From Nanobdellota archaeon (GTDB taxonomy: Archaea; Nanobdellota; Nanobdellia; Woesearchaeales; WJKV01): a stretch of 64,000 bases of DNA. Positions 38,181-45,772 of the stretch are shown in pieces. The notes beneath the pieces are model-generated. The model was not told the DNA's origin. It saw only the letters and a program-made list of their open reading frames with translations, and ran no database searches. The DNA is taken from NCBI GenBank assembly GCA_023133595.1, contig JAGLWF010000001.1, positions 124,494 to 188,493 of the forward strand. Direction: 5' to 3'. Both the position numbers and the translations under genes were made by a program. How positions within the stretch are numbered: position 1 is the first letter of the stretch; each line of letters opens with the position of its first letter.

Positions 38181-38203
38181 ATAAGAGAAAAAAAACTTAT
38201 TCT
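38181..38203. terminator. Possible bidirectional terminator between convergent rfcS and lipoprotein genes
   Basis: AATAAG...CTTATT inverted repeat flanking A-tracts (T-tracts on the other strand). Confidence 0.35.
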
Positions 38204-39153
38204 ACTGGCTGCACAACAACACTTGTGCTTATTGTTTCTTTGTAATCAAACTGCAGTTTCACATTGATTGTTTTTACAAAGTCATTGTCAACTGCAACAT
38301 CCTGCTTACATCGGATGATTGCTTCTCCTGCCCGTAGATCTGCATAACCAGTATTGTCAGCACCTTCCCTCAGACCAGAACAGACTAATCCTGGCAAGCC
38401 AGTGTCAACCTCTACAAACACTTTATTCTCATCAACACGCTGCGGATTACAGTCACTGTCAAGCCTGTAGACTTTTCCGTTTCCTTTCTTGTTGATCCTG
38501 AATGTGAATGCCAATGATGTTGCGCTTGCTGCATTTGCTGCCAGATCAACAACCTGGACAGGTGATGCACTGTTCTGCACAACTTTGCTTCCTTCGACTG
38601 TACAGACACCTTCTTCTCTAGAACGCAGATCTTTCCTGATACATAGAGAACTGATGACATTTGTACCATACTTGTAGCAGACATCTGCACGTACAGGATA
38701 AGTTGTATCTCCGATCACTGGTTCAGCCCTGTTCAGACTTTCATAGATAACAAAAACTGGATTTGACGGAATAATAGTACTTTGCGGATCTCTTTTCTTT
38801 GCCAGTAGATCTTCATCAGGAGACTGCACAGCTTCTGTATAGCCAAACTCTCCAGGATCAAGTCCGCTCAATGTAATTAAGACATCGTCCTTCAGGACTT
38901 CCCATTCTCCGTCATTCATCAGCTGAATTTCGACATCAAAAGGATCTGCTCCGCCGCTAAAGACTTTTGCCAGTGGCCTGTCTGGTGTAAATTCAAGCAA
39001 CAAGCCATTTGTTCCGCCAATGAACGCTCTGGTCTCAACTCCTTTGTCTCCACCAAATATTCCACGTTCTTCTGCACCCTCTCTCTGTGCACATCCGGTT
39101 CCTAGAATTGTTATCACTAACAAAAAGATTGCAATTGCATGTATTTTTTTCAT
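38197..39153 (-). CDS. Lipoprotein, paralogue A of the three-member family
   Basis: Signal peptide with lipobox ...LVITILGTGC; paired-Cys module VCYKYGTNVISSLCIRKD...FRINKKGNGKVYRLDSDC...INVKLQFDYKETISTSVVV. Confidence 0.75.
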   Translation of the reverse strand: MKKIHAIAIFLLVITILGTGCAQREGAEERGIFGGDKGVETRAFIGGTNGLLLEFTPDRPLAKVFSGGADPFDVEIQLMNDGEWEVLKDDVLITLSGLDPGEFGYTEAVQSPDEDLLAKKRDPQSTIIPSNPVFVIYESLNRAEPVIGDTTYPVRADVCYKYGTNVISSLCIRKDLRSREEGVCTVEGSKVVQNSASPVQVVDLAANAASATSLAFTFRINKKGNGKVYRLDSDCNPQRVDENKVFVEVDTGLPGLVCSGLREGADNTGYADLRAGEAIIRCKQDVAVDNDFVKTINVKLQFDYKETISTSVVVQPVE

Positions 39154-39166
39154 GGTAATTTCCTCC

Positions 39167-40204
39167 TTATCCTAATCCTAAATTCTCAATCAGTATTGGT
39201 TTGACAATGCTCTGGGTCACACGATATTCTACTTTTATTGTAAGTGGTGTGTTCAAGATATCAGGCCCAACATCAAGATCGTCAGCGTAACAGGACAGTA
39301 TTGAATTTTCCCGGTCAATATTGAATTTATTATCAGTATTTTTCAGCAACGGGCATTCTAACTCTACATCTGCAAGTATTCTCGGTTTAAACTCAATGTC
39401 ATCTCCTTCTGTAAATTGGATCCAGCCATAATTTTGTTGTTCTAAAGGATGTTTTGGATCACAAGCATCAAGATCCTCTCCTGTTCTCAAGGATTTTGCT
39501 TGCTTATCATAGATTTTCATACCTTGAGAAGTATCAACTTGTTTAAAGTGGATATCAAACCGTACGCGTATTTTGTCTGGACTGATCTTGTCTGTGCGAT
39601 AATCGACTTTAGTCACAGCTACTGGTGCTGCCTGACCTTCTGATAGTGTGACTGTTGCTTCTTTTGGACAGCCAGAACCATCTCTCTGCGCACTTCCGTC
39701 TCTGTCAATACAGACAGGAATGCTTGCCTGTGTCGCATAATCATAACATGCAGTGATCACTGTGTCTTGTTTTAATCTTGGAGTTCCTAGTGCCTTGACA
39801 TTCTCTTCATTAACTGACCCTGTGAATGTTTCCATACGCTCGCCGCCAGGACCGTATCGAGTCTTGCCAGGAAGATCTTCTCCAACAATCGTAATTTCTT
39901 CATCATCATACTCCAGATAATTTTTATCATGGCCATATACTATTAGGTTTATATCTCTGTACGACACAAGATCTCTAGGCGGCCATCTTCCAAGATTCTT
40001 TAGATTCACAATATATAGAAACTCTTGTCCAGGTGTAAGCTTTAATTCTTCTGGATTTTCTAAGCTGACATCGATCCCGCGCAGACCTTCCAGATACTTG
40101 CCTTCTTCAAATGTAGGTCCTGCTGAAGGTTTTTTCGCACAAGATACAGAGAAAATTAGCAAAAATATAGATATTATTGCAAATATTAGATAATTTAGCT
40201 TCAT
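39167..40204 (-). CDS. Lipoprotein, paralogue B
   Basis: MKLNYLIFAIISIFLLIFSVSC lipobox; ACYDYATQASIPVCIDRD; LSEGQAAPVAVTKV; PLTIKVEYRVTQSIVKPILIE. Confidence 0.75.
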   Translation of the reverse strand: MKLNYLIFAIISIFLLIFSVSCAKKPSAGPTFEEGKYLEGLRGIDVSLENPEELKLTPGQEFLYIVNLKNLGRWPPRDLVSYRDINLIVYGHDKNYLEYDDEEITIVGEDLPGKTRYGPGGERMETFTGSVNEENVKALGTPRLKQDTVITACYDYATQASIPVCIDRDGSAQRDGSGCPKEATVTLSEGQAAPVAVTKVDYRTDKISPDKIRVRFDIHFKQVDTSQGMKIYDKQAKSLRTGEDLDACDPKHPLEQQNYGWIQFTEGDDIEFKPRILADVELECPLLKNTDNKFNIDRENSILSCYADDLDVGPDILNTPLTIKVEYRVTQSIVKPILIENLGLG

Positions 40205-40290
40205 CTTTTCATCCATCACTTATGCTTCTTAATAGGGATTTTATATATAAACCTTTTGATTGGCCCTATACATGAATCATATATGGTTGT

Positions 40291-41268
40291 TTAACTCTTA
40301 TCCACAACAATCTTTTTGATTGTTATTTGTTTTGTCTCTCCAACTTTGTATGCATATTTCAGATTGATCTTCATTGGAGAGCGTGTTGCTGGTTTTCTGA
40401 AAGTAACGATTTCACATTTAATCTTTGCTTGATTTTCCTCAAGGTGTGTTTTTCCTTGACATTTCATCTGGGATCCAGTATCTGTTTTTGAATCATAAAT
40501 ATACTCTTTTGATAATTGAACAGAGTAATCAAAACTATTCAATGTACCTCTACGATAACCTCCAGGACCGCAGACAAGATCCACTGTTGATATCCCATCG
40601 TATTCTTCATACTTGAAAACTTGCCCATCTCCCTTGTTTTCAATCGTGATTATGAAAGTGATTGTCACATCATCACCAGGCATGTTTGTTATTATCTCTT
40701 CAACATCTGTCACTGCCAACGGCGCCCCTTGTCCTTCTGAAAGATTAAGCTTCTGGTTGGCTTTCTCAAACTCACAGGTAAAAGCTCCAATCTGCGCCCC
40801 AATACAGCCAATCAGATCAGCTGTTGTTTCATACGAATAGCAAAGATTTAGTGGAATGTCGACTTCTAGTTCTTCTGTTGCAAATATCTTCCCAGCTTCA
40901 AAACTGAAAAATTCTGGAGCTGGTGCATATCCTCCCTGCGGATTATACGAAGAACGTCCGGCAATATCTGTTAGCTTACGCATTGGTGTGGAATCTTTGA
41001 ACATCAATGGCGGTGTCGCACCCAGAACTAATTTGCTTTCTGCCGCATTATACGCCCCTTTATTGTGAATATCCACAGAAACTACAAAATTATTATCTTC
41101 GTATATCTCTGTCTCGGGAAAATCAACAAAAGAATATTCCAGACCATCGTAGCCTATCCGGAATTCCTCTTTATCTGGAGTGTCATACATACCAAAATCA
41201 CATGCTGCCAGAATCAAAATCAATATCGAGATGCTAAGCAATATCAGCATCTGTTTCTTATATCTCAC
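40291..41268 (-). CDS. Lipoprotein, paralogue C
   Basis: LLSISILILILAAC lipobox; LCYSYETTADLIGCIGA; LSEGQGAPLAVTDV; ITIENKGDGQVFKYEEY; PMKINLKYAYKVGETKQITIK. Confidence 0.75.
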   Translation of the reverse strand: MRYKKQMLILLSISILILILAACDFGMYDTPDKEEFRIGYDGLEYSFVDFPETEIYEDNNFVVSVDIHNKGAYNAAESKLVLGATPPLMFKDSTPMRKLTDIAGRSSYNPQGGYAPAPEFFSFEAGKIFATEELEVDIPLNLCYSYETTADLIGCIGAQIGAFTCEFEKANQKLNLSEGQGAPLAVTDVEEIITNMPGDDVTITFIITIENKGDGQVFKYEEYDGISTVDLVCGPGGYRRGTLNSFDYSVQLSKEYIYDSKTDTGSQMKCQGKTHLEENQAKIKCEIVTFRKPATRSPMKINLKYAYKVGETKQITIKKIVVDKS

Positions 41269-44200
41269 TCTCTTTCACCGTTTTACAATCAGGGTCTCTT
41301 AGGATAAGCTGCACCTTCTTATTAGTGTTTTGATAAAGCTCTTTTAAATTGACTTCTTCATGTTCATATTTTATTTTAAAGATCACATTCTTTCCAGCAT
41401 AGCCGATAAGGCTTCCTTTTGCAACATTTCCTGCCTTCCTTGCTGGACGCACTCCCTCAAAAATACTCGTGAAACTATTCGGATGATTGATCACAATCTT
41501 GTTATCTTTTCCTGAGATGATACCGCTCTCTGGAGCAACCAATCTTTGGTTCTCTGCACTGATCTGCACTTTTTCCAGACCGTCAATGCATTTGCTGATG
41601 ATCTTTGAATCAGGTGCTGGCCAGATTAATGTATCCTTGACAGAGAAGCCCATGCATTGCCCGAACTCTTTGTCCCATTCACAGCCGATATCACACGGAT
41701 CGAGCTGGCATTGTTCTAGATTAGGATAACTTTCACATTTCATATCTGATTCACACGATTCACAGGAATCTCCGACAATCAACCCTGCAATTGCGCCAGA
41801 AGCACCTAGGCCTAATGCATCACTTATCGAAAGAGATTCTACAAACTCCACAGCAGGTTTTGTCGAGGCATATTGCCAGTAACAGCCATTTCCGCATGCA
41901 TCAACATCACAATAATCTTTTGCAGGATAATCACAACCACTGACATCTGTCAGGCAGGTATCATATAGCATAATCTTTGGTTGTTTTCCTGGAGCTAATG
42001 TTTTGTCATAATCTTTGACACGCACTACTGTCTTTGCTGATAAAGTATAACGATAACGGGCAATGCTCTTGATGTAGTACGGTGTTACATCAACACCAGT
42101 AAGAATAGGCTTGTTTGGGTCTGCTGCTTCAATACGGCAATTGAATGTCCTGAAATTCTTTATCTCTGTATCTAAAGGTTCTTTTAGTGCGTACTCCACT
42201 TCCTTAGTCTTTGGCAAATCTTTTACTTTCTTAAACGCTGGAATACATTCTTCTGATAATTTGAAGACGTCTGGCAATATCACGCTTAAACCATGGATCG
42301 CTGTGATTTTTCCATTCCGCCACTGATTCTTTAGTGTAAAGCCAACAGCTGCCCCCCGGTCTTCTGCAATAATTGCTCCTGTGATGTCTGTGGCATCAAA
42401 AGTTGCTGCTGTAGTTGGAATTTCAGATGTATAAGGTCCTTGCTGGACAGCTATCACAGGACCTTCTGCGAAACCAACACCGACCATGACAGGGCCAGGA
42501 GTGAATTTTGCTTCTGGTTCTGGAATTCCTTTTTCTTTCAGTACTGTTGTTTCCTGTCTCTGATATTCTAATTTTAATTCCCGGGCAACAAAATAAGCTT
42601 TATAGTAACCAACTGTGATAAAATCAAAATCCGCCTTGAATTCAACTTTCTTTGCCCCTGGTTCTAGCGGAGTGAAATCACAGTCAACACGTTCTCCGCC
42701 AAATACGAGATCTGAAAAGTTCGCACGCTGCGGATAGACACGACCAGCACCTTCTCCTTCAATCGTACACGATAAATCTATCACACATTCTGCAAGATTC
42801 TCATTATCCGCGCAGATATCAGATGCAAGAGAATTACCGCTCAGAATAGCGCTTATCGACGCGGGAAGGCCGCGCTCGAACGTGAGATCTCCTTTTTTGC
42901 TTGGCTCCAGCTTCACACCATAACTTTTATCCTGGGATGCATCTACTGTCGCTGTATAAGCATCTCCGGTTGCTAATGCTACCTGTTCTGACATCCAGTC
43001 TTTTGATCGTTGTATTGGATGAAAATCTTCAGTCCAGATCTCAACTTTCTTTTGCTGGAACGCAACATCAATGATTCCAGCTTTGTATAAATCGCGAGAA
43101 TATTTTCCGACTGGAACATCATATACAACCATACCTGTGATAACTAATGCAATTATAATTATAGCATAAACAACATTATTGATCTCAAATCCTCCTCCTT
43201 CTGCCTTGCGCAGCTCTCTGCGCTTTGGATTGAAAAGATAGTCCAGCACATAGATGAGCGGAACACAGATGACATATGTGGGTATTAGATCTGCTCCGGG
43301 AATAAATTCTATCACCACAGGAATAAAAGCGAATAAGTATGTATACGGAGAACCACCCATTGCTCTGCCGATAAGAAAACCAGTTATTGGTTCTGCAATA
43401 TCCCCGATTCCTGGAACTGCCATACCAACATAATCCAGAGCATCACTGATAAGGGCAACAAGCATTGCAAGCCAGAAACTTCCTGGAACATCCTTTCTTA
43501 ATTGTGAAATATAAGATTTTTTTGCTATTTTCTCTGCACTTTTCGCTGCCCTGACTCCTTCCTCTCTTTCTTCTTCTTGAGCCTCTGCTACTTTTGCACC
43601 AAGCTCAGCTGTCTTTTCAGCTTCTATTGCAGCTTCTTTTGTTGCAACACTTCCTGCTTTCGAGCTTGCAAAGATCTTTGCAAAATCTCCCATCTTTGAA
43701 CCTACTGTGGACAATCTTTCGCCAAAGCCGGGTCCAGGTGCTCCAGCATATGCTGGTTCGTAATAATCATACGCAGAGACTTCTCCAGAAGCATATCTTG
43801 CTCTTCCGAATGGTTTGAGCTTAGAGAAAAATGGCAGCACTAAATGATAAATCAAATAGATATGTAACGCGCCAAATCCTAAGAACATCATGACCAAGAC
43901 AAAAGTGATAAGATTCTGCTGGAACACCTGCCTGAAGGAATCACCATCCAACGATCTGTAGCTCATATAGACAAAAACAAATAAGCCAAAGATCCAGAAT
44001 ATTTTATTATCATGCAAAATTTCTAGCGGAAAGTATTGTGATAGAAATGTCTGTGCTTTAGGAAACTGTGCAAATGCAACTGCAAATAATGCAGCGATAA
44101 AGAAGACAGCAACATCTTTTGCATCTCCCTGTTTTTCTGGGATTGCTCTAAATATCCCCCCTTCTCCAGCAACCTTGTTCTCATACATCTCGACTTTGAA

Positions 44201-44422
44201 CCAGTGTAACGGAATAACGGCCAGCAAAGCCCAAGGAGAGATAAAGACTGCCACCATCACGTAAGCGATCCAGTTCCCTGGTTGTTTTACTGGATTCTTA
44301 TGCTCTGGGCTTGCAGCGAGAATAAACAACACTAAACGTATGATGATAAGTATTCCTATTAAAGAAGTTGCAACACCTGGAATTGGAAGGTATAGATTGA
44401 CAAACTCATCGACAGTCCCCAT
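41258..44422 (-). CDS. Large polytopic membrane protein with Cys-rich ectodomain and C-terminal degenerate M23/LytM-like domain
   Basis: Several N-terminal TM helices, Ala/Glu-rich coiled segment, GVDVTPYYIKSIARYRYTLSAKTVVRV module, DACGNGCYWQY / DPCDIGCEWDK Cys knots, then LVAPESGIISGKDNKIVINHPNSFTSIFEGVRPARKAGNVAKGSLIGYAGKNVIFKIKYE. Confidence 0.7.
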   Translation of the reverse strand: MGTVDEFVNLYLPIPGVATSLIGILIIIRLVLFILAASPEHKNPVKQPGNWIAYVMVAVFISPWALLAVIPLHWFKVEMYENKVAGEGGIFRAIPEKQGDAKDVAVFFIAALFAVAFAQFPKAQTFLSQYFPLEILHDNKIFWIFGLFVFVYMSYRSLDGDSFRQVFQQNLITFVLVMMFLGFGALHIYLIYHLVLPFFSKLKPFGRARYASGEVSAYDYYEPAYAGAPGPGFGERLSTVGSKMGDFAKIFASSKAGSVATKEAAIEAEKTAELGAKVAEAQEEEREEGVRAAKSAEKIAKKSYISQLRKDVPGSFWLAMLVALISDALDYVGMAVPGIGDIAEPITGFLIGRAMGGSPYTYLFAFIPVVIEFIPGADLIPTYVICVPLIYVLDYLFNPKRRELRKAEGGGFEINNVVYAIIIIALVITGMVVYDVPVGKYSRDLYKAGIIDVAFQQKKVEIWTEDFHPIQRSKDWMSEQVALATGDAYTATVDASQDKSYGVKLEPSKKGDLTFERGLPASISAILSGNSLASDICADNENLAECVIDLSCTIEGEGAGRVYPQRANFSDLVFGGERVDCDFTPLEPGAKKVEFKADFDFITVGYYKAYFVARELKLEYQRQETTVLKEKGIPEPEAKFTPGPVMVGVGFAEGPVIAVQQGPYTSEIPTTAATFDATDITGAIIAEDRGAAVGFTLKNQWRNGKITAIHGLSVILPDVFKLSEECIPAFKKVKDLPKTKEVEYALKEPLDTEIKNFRTFNCRIEAADPNKPILTGVDVTPYYIKSIARYRYTLSAKTVVRVKDYDKTLAPGKQPKIMLYDTCLTDVSGCDYPAKDYCDVDACGNGCYWQYASTKPAVEFVESLSISDALGLGASGAIAGLIVGDSCESCESDMKCESYPNLEQCQLDPCDIGCEWDKEFGQCMGFSVKDTLIWPAPDSKIISKCIDGLEKVQISAENQRLVAPESGIISGKDNKIVINHPNSFTSIFEGVRPARKAGNVAKGSLIGYAGKNVIFKIKYEHEEVNLKELYQNTNKKVQLILRDPDCKTVKESEI

Positions 44423-44453
44423 AATTTAAGATCCTCTTTTATCATAAGTTATT

Positions 44454-45662
44454 TCAGTTCTCGACTTCTATGCTTATTTCAAGACTTGTGAGATCGATTC
44501 CTTTTGAACGTGGAACAAGCTTGATTGCATTTGTTCCTTTTCGCAGATAATCGTCAATGTCATGTGTATAGGATTGTCCTTTCTCTCCAATATGGATTGT
44601 TCTGCCGTTAATGTACACGTCAAGATTCTTGAACTCTGGGCTTACAAATTCCAAGGTCAATACTCCATAAACATCGTCCTCTAGCTGTATCCTGTCAAGA
44701 TCATCTTCCTCGATATCAAAATAATAAGTTGGAGCGACAGGTTCCTTGAATTTCTCTGTTATCTGAATATTATCGATAATATAATTGCCCATTGCTGTCT
44801 TGAAAGTAAGTTCGTTCTCTCCTGTCCTTAATTTTGCTGGAAGAAAATTGACCATTACCGGAGTTCCGCATAATGGTATTGCCTGTGATAGAACTTGTCC
44901 ATTTATCAAGATCTCAAGTGGACCTACGTCAGCAGGCCTGCACTCAGGGAGGTATTTCAAAGTTACTTCTCTTGCATTCAAAAGATCATCTGTAGTGACA
45001 ACAAACTTATTTACACTGGCTAATTTTGAAACATCTCTTACATCTCCTGTAATCTGGATTGTTTCAAGAAGATAGCTGTTTGTCCCCCAGAATCTCCATC
45101 CCGGGCTGCTTGCCCTGAATTCAATGACATTCTCTTTCTGCAGAAGATGCTTTGGAATTTCAACTGGTGGATTTGTTGGCTGTGATAGTTCGTTATTGAA
45201 TATCTGTTTGCTGTTCATGAATATCAGCAGTCTGCCAGAATGTTTTTTTGCATTGAATGATAGAAGTATATTATCAGTATTCTCAGGATCTGCCAGGACA
45301 AAATGGAATATGTCTGGTTCTGAACTGAACAAGCTTCTTTCAGTATATATCGAAGAAGCTCTTGCTAATTGTTTGCTCTTGATTTCTGATGAGAGAAACG
45401 CTGCTGGAAGATATATCCTGTTCTGGGTTGCTGTCAGAGTATCTAATCTCCCTGGAGATTTTGATAGCAATACATATATGTTATCCCCGCCAGGAATCGT
45501 TGGTGTTGATGGTTGGAATCCTGATGGGCCTACATCTCCTTCCAAAAGCTCTGTCCTATGTTCTGGTGGAACAAGCAGAATGTATAGAATTATAACAACT
45601 GCGATAAGCGCGACAAGAGCTGCTGCCCCGCTTCCAGTATCACCTCTTCTGTTCTTAATCAT
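44454..45662 (-). CDS. Membrane-anchored secreted protein with repeated beta-sandwich-like segments
   Basis: N-terminal TM SGAAALVALIAVVIILYILLV; repeated ING...L..G.N.I/L.F...I.I segments. Confidence 0.65.
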   Translation of the reverse strand: MIKNRRGDTGSGAAALVALIAVVIILYILLVPPEHRTELLEGDVGPSGFQPSTPTIPGGDNIYVLLSKSPGRLDTLTATQNRIYLPAAFLSSEIKSKQLARASSIYTERSLFSSEPDIFHFVLADPENTDNILLSFNAKKHSGRLLIFMNSKQIFNNELSQPTNPPVEIPKHLLQKENVIEFRASSPGWRFWGTNSYLLETIQITGDVRDVSKLASVNKFVVTTDDLLNAREVTLKYLPECRPADVGPLEILINGQVLSQAIPLCGTPVMVNFLPAKLRTGENELTFKTAMGNYIIDNIQITEKFKEPVAPTYYFDIEEDDLDRIQLEDDVYGVLTLEFVSPEFKNLDVYINGRTIHIGEKGQSYTHDIDDYLRKGTNAIKLVPRSKGIDLTSLEISIEVEN

Positions 45663-45772
45663 TTATGCTCACCTATGCACAAATAATACCTATTTATATA
45701 TAAAACAATCTATTTTATAAAGGGGAAATTTAGGGGTAAAGATATATAAACAGCCCTGATTTCTAATACGTT

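Follow-up and report, generated by a model that had tools for sequence, protein, structure and literature searches.

The 64,000-nucleotide stretch of DNA analysed here (hereafter the window) comes from a Nanobdellota archaeon with a genome of 1.37 Mb (assembly GCA_023133595.1, contig JAGLWF010000001.1) and contains, on the minus strand at positions 38197-45662, five genes arranged head to tail. Comparison of these genes with their relatives suggests that they encode a surface complex that is anchored in the membrane and has a swappable tip, which would make contact with bacterial cell walls; we put the probability of this reading at roughly one half. All five open reading frames were confirmed. 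From upstream to downstream, they encode P0005 (402 residues, 44454..45662), the giant protein P0004 (1054 residues, 41258..44422) and three predicted lipoproteins, namely C (P0003, 325 residues, 40291..41268), B (P0002, 350 residues, 39167..40219) and A (P0001, 318 residues, 38197..39153). These genes, and all the features described below, lie on the minus strand.

The lipoboxes of the three lipoproteins (ILAAC in C, FSVSC in B and LGTGC in A), recognized in an earlier note on this DNA, are indeed present and conserved: a lipobox-like motif predicting lipidation is kept in 108 of 117 members of the ILAAC family, 10 of 11 of the FSVSC family and 52 of 55 of the ILGTGC family. The same note had proposed a module common to the three proteins, and the similarity is far above chance. 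Profile alignment of lipoproteins C and A extends over 296 columns (E=4.6e-44), while phmmer links lipoprotein B to C (P0002 versus P0003, E=1.5e-9). As judged from these comparisons, the three lipoproteins are full-length homologues, each with two predicted immunoglobulin (Ig)-like domains. The AlphaFold model of lipoprotein C, which has a mean confidence score (pLDDT) of 91.6, contains two beta-domains, each with a terminal strand of ~24 residues. In the giant, the model displays two beta-domains in the same order with good local confidence (pLDDT of the whole protein, 58): D1 (residues ~491-660, 42443..42952), which is collinear with the lipoprotein D1 and includes a 25-residue strand at 589-613, and D2 (residues ~684-806, 42005..42373; delimited by hhalign and the model), which ends with a 25-residue strand at 779-803. 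Aligned by hhalign with lipoprotein C, the ectodomain (residues 478-806) scores 38.8, whereas 30 column shuffles reach at most 20.7 and the reversed profile 16.4. D2 alone matches the lipoprotein C-domain (P=2.3e-5); hhalign gave no support for homology of D1 alone to the lipoproteins, the support for D1 coming from the two-domain alignment. The giant ectodomain appears to be a weaker fourth copy of the lipoprotein unit. Since the giant and the lipoproteins match both in profile comparison and in modelled domain order, the operon seems to contain one two-domain unit in four copies, of which three are lipid-anchored and one is carried by a polytopic membrane protein. Profile alignment thus finds the shared domain in all four proteins; the giant, to which only the last part of the module had been attributed, is truly if more weakly related, and the related part is larger, comprising the end of D1 plus D2. 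Foldseek searches with the lipoprotein and giant models returned generic Ig or beta-sandwich matches alone, with low global TM-scores.

The relatives of the window genome are metagenome-assembled genomes (MAGs) of Woesearchaeota/Nanoarchaeota. Our searches covered one phylum, apart from a one-genome-per-species scan with a P0005 peptide pattern, which covered all genomes. The order P0005, giant and three lipoproteins was found again in ~30 genomes of the same order, and the one-genome-per-species scan added another 67 loci, every one of them carrying the label Woesearchaeota, Nanoarchaeota, DPANN or unclassified archaeon. P0005 and the giant occur together in 76 of 92 non-redundant loci and all five genes in 44; in each of these 44 complete loci the genes are co-oriented, with median gaps of 51, -4, 42 and 43 bp, a 4-bp overlap being typical of the giant/lipoprotein C junction. 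The sequences are strongly diverged (about 20-35% identity), and order and orientation are nonetheless fixed. P0005 is present in 231 of the 282 phylum genomes sampled and lipoprotein A, the most widely retained of the three lipoproteins, in 223; among the 221 high-quality genomes the counts are 196 and 187. In two genomes of another order (loci L123 and L125) only the P0005-lipoprotein A pair was seen at the locus, and gene positions place lipoprotein A far from P0005 in some genomes. The cluster is therefore kept in dozens of related genomes, and the paralogy, previously regarded as lineage-specific, extends over the order and in part over the phylum.

The giants diverge after D2, and their C-terminal tail, which the earlier note had overlooked, says most about the system. 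Among the 33 tails that reach 70 residues or more, Pfam identified an SLT (lytic transglycosylase) domain in 10, M23 endopeptidase in 3 (one of which is probably the window's own weak match), M15 carboxypeptidase in 1 and glucosaminidase in 1; the remaining tails include fn3, PKD, Ig or crystallin domains. The matches are strong for M23 in L106 (4.3e-28, the best) and L036 (2.8e-17), for M15 in L025 (1.6e-11), for glucosaminidase in L024 (2.1e-9) and for SLT tails such as those of L042 and L027 (best SLT match 9.4e-20). In L099 (1.3e-21) and L040 (1.8e-9) an SLT domain sits on lipoprotein C. The catalytic motifs are intact in these relatives (HWGLD...HLH, HQGID...HLH, SAHAWGVAVD...MHFE), the M23 tails of L036 and L106 have the HxxxD and HxH zinc ligands, and the SLT matches (PF01464) are above cut-off with the catalytic Glu present. 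The scans of hydrolase-bearing tails and lipoproteins reported no cell-wall-binding domain. Overall, the 67 classed loci comprise 17 with an apparently intact hydrolase, 2 with a degenerate M23 domain, 15 with another tail and 33 with none. About 11 giants carry SLT in this classification; the number is approximate, as the label of L111 derives from our own hidden Markov model, which had the L111 tail among its seeds. Mapping hydrolase presence on a quick P0005 tree with many weak branches requires 11 parsimony changes, which suggests that hydrolase tips were gained or lost repeatedly. Since four enzyme classes whose usual substrate is peptidoglycan occupy the same position, the tip would be expected to meet bacterial peptidoglycan. 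As a separate observation, residues ~839-934 of the L059 giant, behind its SLT domain, match phage tail-fibre families (PHROG, 4.5e-5).

The window's own tail (residues ~958-1030, 41333..41551) is a different case. Pfam matches it to M23 with E=0.0083 and 0.018, below the Pfam cut-off, and the PHROG scan of the five proteins gave a single weak match, to a tail lysozyme, at residues 958-1020 of the giant (E=0.0028). The tail of the sister locus L055 matches M23 in the same register (E=0.1), and hhalign of the window tail against the L036 and L106 M23 tails gives P=0.0066. The zinc ligands HxxxD and HxH are all absent from both the window tail and the L055 tail. The window tail is probably a degenerate M23 fold, with a likely binding or regulatory role. 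Matches of the same tail to ribosomal L29/L24 (E ~0.004) were dismissed as compositional: they involve a Lys-rich, two-sequence profile and have no other support. A search for SLT in the window genome gave no match. EnvC and NlpD are LytM regulators with degenerate M23 folds, which bind or regulate rather than cut. The window tail as proposed resembles them in its degenerate fold, whereas EnvC and NlpD are bacterial division proteins and act on the cell's own wall.

P0005, the first gene product, starts with a class III (archaellin/pilin-like) signal/anchor (NRRGDTGSGAAALVALIAVVIILYILLVPP), in which the pattern K/R-K/R-G/A-Q/D/E is followed by a hydrophobic stretch. This motif, with its predicted cleavage, is kept in 77 of 84 P0005 relatives, and a prepilin peptidase (Peptidase_A24) is encoded by the window genome and by 20 of the 21 genomes searched. 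The description of the protein as a membrane-anchored beta-repeat protein holds: it contains three internal homologous beta-domains (hhalign probabilities of 97% for domains 1-2 and 92% for 2-3). These look like tandem galactose-binding-like beta-sandwiches; the P0005 relatives give few, weak Pfam matches to GH2_N, BetaGal_ABD2 or CBM35, the best (8.2e-5) in one relative. The P0005 proteins of L036, L046, L049, L051, L053 and L107 have an extra segment and reach 561-577 residues, compared to the usual ~400.

Nearly all of these archaea seem incapable of building a peptidoglycan wall themselves: of 61 related genomes only 2 have a penicillin-binding protein (PBP) transpeptidase, and the window genome has none; bacterial walls are therefore the likely target of the hydrolase tips. 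MurJ was rejected as a marker of wall synthesis because it matches archaeal controls too. One woesearchaeal genome (G010, one contig, 100% complete) encodes at L128:6812-8803 a bifunctional class A PBP (Transgly 4.6e-57, Transpeptidase 2.5e-32), a surprising enzyme for an archaeon in which no peptidoglycan is known. SLT domains are also frequent at other loci of these genomes (present in 135 of the 282 sampled across the phylum, often several per genome), so that the operon is one of several contexts for SLT. In another such context, a 2282-residue SLT protein (L122:3182-10030) adjoins a 637-residue protein with a class III-like N-terminus (MKRGQVSLFVIIGIIIVVVLG; L122:10027-11940), and gene pairs similar in size and layout occur in L124 and L126; pairs of this type are possibly a second wall-directed system.

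In the window, the five genes are separated by gaps of 10 to 71 bp, with an 11-bp overlap between the giant and lipoprotein C. A TATA-like box (TTTATATATAAATA, 45691..45704) predicted by direct reading precedes P0005, and another (TTTATATATAAAA, 40239..40251), just upstream of lipoprotein B, suggests a putative second promoter. Since both genes are preceded by such boxes, there may be two transcription units, P0005-giant-lipoprotein C and lipoprotein B-lipoprotein A. The five consecutive minus-strand genes were thus correctly described in ORFs, strand and coordinates, but the single unit that they were said to form is read here as two. As for the remaining part of the giant, about 7 transmembrane helices are predicted from hydropathy and low-confidence model helices within residues 17-434 (43121..44374); this hydrophobic region varies among relatives and has no family or PDB match.

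Taken together, the proposed complex would have a scaffold of four homologous units of two Ig-like domains, with three units anchored by lipid and the fourth belonging to the polytopic giant, to which P0005, with its pilin-type signal, would contribute three sugar-binding-like domains. The C-terminus of the giant would be the swappable tip, consisting of one of four hydrolase classes, of an adhesion-like domain (fn3, PKD, Ig, crystallin) or of nothing at all. The likeliest job of this complex would be to contact and attach to the wall of a neighbouring bacterium, with local opening of that wall in some lineages; in the window lineage the tip, probably a dead M23 fold, would serve binding or regulation, not cutting. 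As about half of the giants end without a tail, contact or scaffolding is more likely to be the core function, and wall cutting a lineage-specific addition. Several observations weigh against this proposal. The window tail is degenerate, with an M23 match below the Pfam cut-off, 33 of the 67 classed giants are tail-less, and most SLT domains of these genomes sit outside the operon. In addition, two relatives encode PBP transpeptidases, so that remodelling of their own wall is possible there, and the N-terminal half of the giant is modelled at low confidence. What the analysis establishes concerns the genes, their conservation and homology, the domain identities and the catalytic motifs; the surface location, the assembly into one complex and the bacterial target are inferred. 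A bolder formulation, which we offer only tentatively, is that of an undescribed, near-universal contact apparatus of Woesearchaeota and their relatives, whose four-unit Ig scaffold bears tips swapped between peptidoglycan hydrolases and adhesins and which latches onto bacterial walls and breaches them locally.

A possible, if doubtful, alternative is that the operon encodes a housekeeping envelope scaffold, such as an S-layer anchor or an organizer of division or surface glycans, with the tails as occasional add-ons that are structural or act on the cell's own surface polymers. The near-universal conservation in small genomes suggests such a core role, and the frequency of tail-less giants and the persistence of P0005 and lipoprotein A by themselves in two genomes from a different order are in line with it. 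The neighbours of the operon, which we take from sequence knowledge to be a pelota-like gene upstream and the RFC small subunit gene downstream, are housekeeping genes conserved across loci, so that vertical inheritance of the operon fits; this too is in favour of a core role. No recurrent insertion gene was found inside the operon in the loci compared. On the other hand, a scaffold of this kind does not account well for tails of four classes which share peptidoglycan as known substrate and keep their catalytic motifs, in genomes of which 59 of 61 have no PBP transpeptidase.

That the five proteins merely share a chromosomal neighbourhood, as separate surface proteins without joint assembly, is very unlikely. 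In the window, a separate TATA-like box does precede lipoproteins B and A, lipoprotein A is distant from P0005 in some genomes and minimal gene sets exist; however, order and orientation are fixed despite the low identity, 4-bp overlaps between the giant and lipoprotein C are typical, and the hydrolase domain occurs on either of these two proteins. Somewhat less improbable is an apparatus for secretion, conjugation or DNA uptake, in which the giant would act like a polytopic channel subunit of the VirB6 type, with a wall-opening enzyme on its extracellular part, and P0005 would be pilin-like. Indeed, the giant consists of a polytopic membrane region followed by an ectodomain and a lytic tail, and the class III-type signal of P0005 coexists with a prepilin peptidase. 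Yet neither a VirB4-type ATPase (type IV secretion/conjugation) nor any further gene for secretion is found repeatedly within the operon or next to it, the search not extending to the whole genome, and the membrane region matches no family or PDB entry. The signal and the peptidase are also the likeness to type IV pili and archaella, from which the system differs by the three galactose-binding-like domains of P0005; no gene for a pilus assembly ATPase or platform lies in or recurrently beside the operon, the rest of the genome not having been searched.

No known system matches the five proteins, as had been noted from motifs: Pfam and NCBIfam scans gave nothing above curated cut-offs, PDB profile searches nothing significant for the main domains, and Foldseek no specific system. 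The contact of surface proteins with bacterial walls has, on the other hand, been proposed before. Castelle et al. (2021; PMC8204110) describe murein-like lytic transglycosylase proteins of DPANN archaea (fam00969) within Module 98, a set of 51 families, mostly of unknown function, from the same taxa, including large extracellular SLT-type proteins of Woesearchaeota/Pacearchaeota of up to 3000 residues for which contact with bacterial walls was proposed. The SLT-type domain on large extracellular proteins is common to both cases, but the relevant passages of that paper concern single large proteins and describe no operon; the 2282-residue L122 protein resembles their type, and its locus is separate from P0005 and lipoprotein A. 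Strock et al. (2025; PMC12352652) report that archaeal modular peptidoglycan hydrolases, M23 included, kill bacteria, with Nanoarchaeota prominent among their sources. Both studies deal with peptidoglycan hydrolase domains in archaea that lack peptidoglycan; the set of Strock et al., as defined in the corresponding passages, needs a catalytic and a wall-binding domain on one protein, whereas the catalytic tails described here are fused to components of a membrane-anchored system of several genes. Vigneron et al. (2022; PMC9723730) interpreted GH23 transglycosylase genes in woesearchaeal MAGs as a sign of predation on bacteria and predicted a vampiristic way of life; the passages concerned report no operon, scaffold or domain-swap pattern. 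The wall-contact reading agrees with these scattered-gene proposals, while the operon, the scaffold and the swapping of tails are not described in the passages of the three papers bearing on the subject, and an earlier description elsewhere is possible.

The abundant Woesearchaeota have yet to be cultivated, and it is still open what they feed on or which organisms they live with. The proposals of a bacterial host or prey made from their genomes have so far rested on scattered lytic transglycosylase genes. The locus analysed here is conserved and is a candidate for the contact machinery itself; it would tie wall-cutting enzymes to a defined, membrane-anchored set of genes, and it supplies specific proteins for expression and testing.

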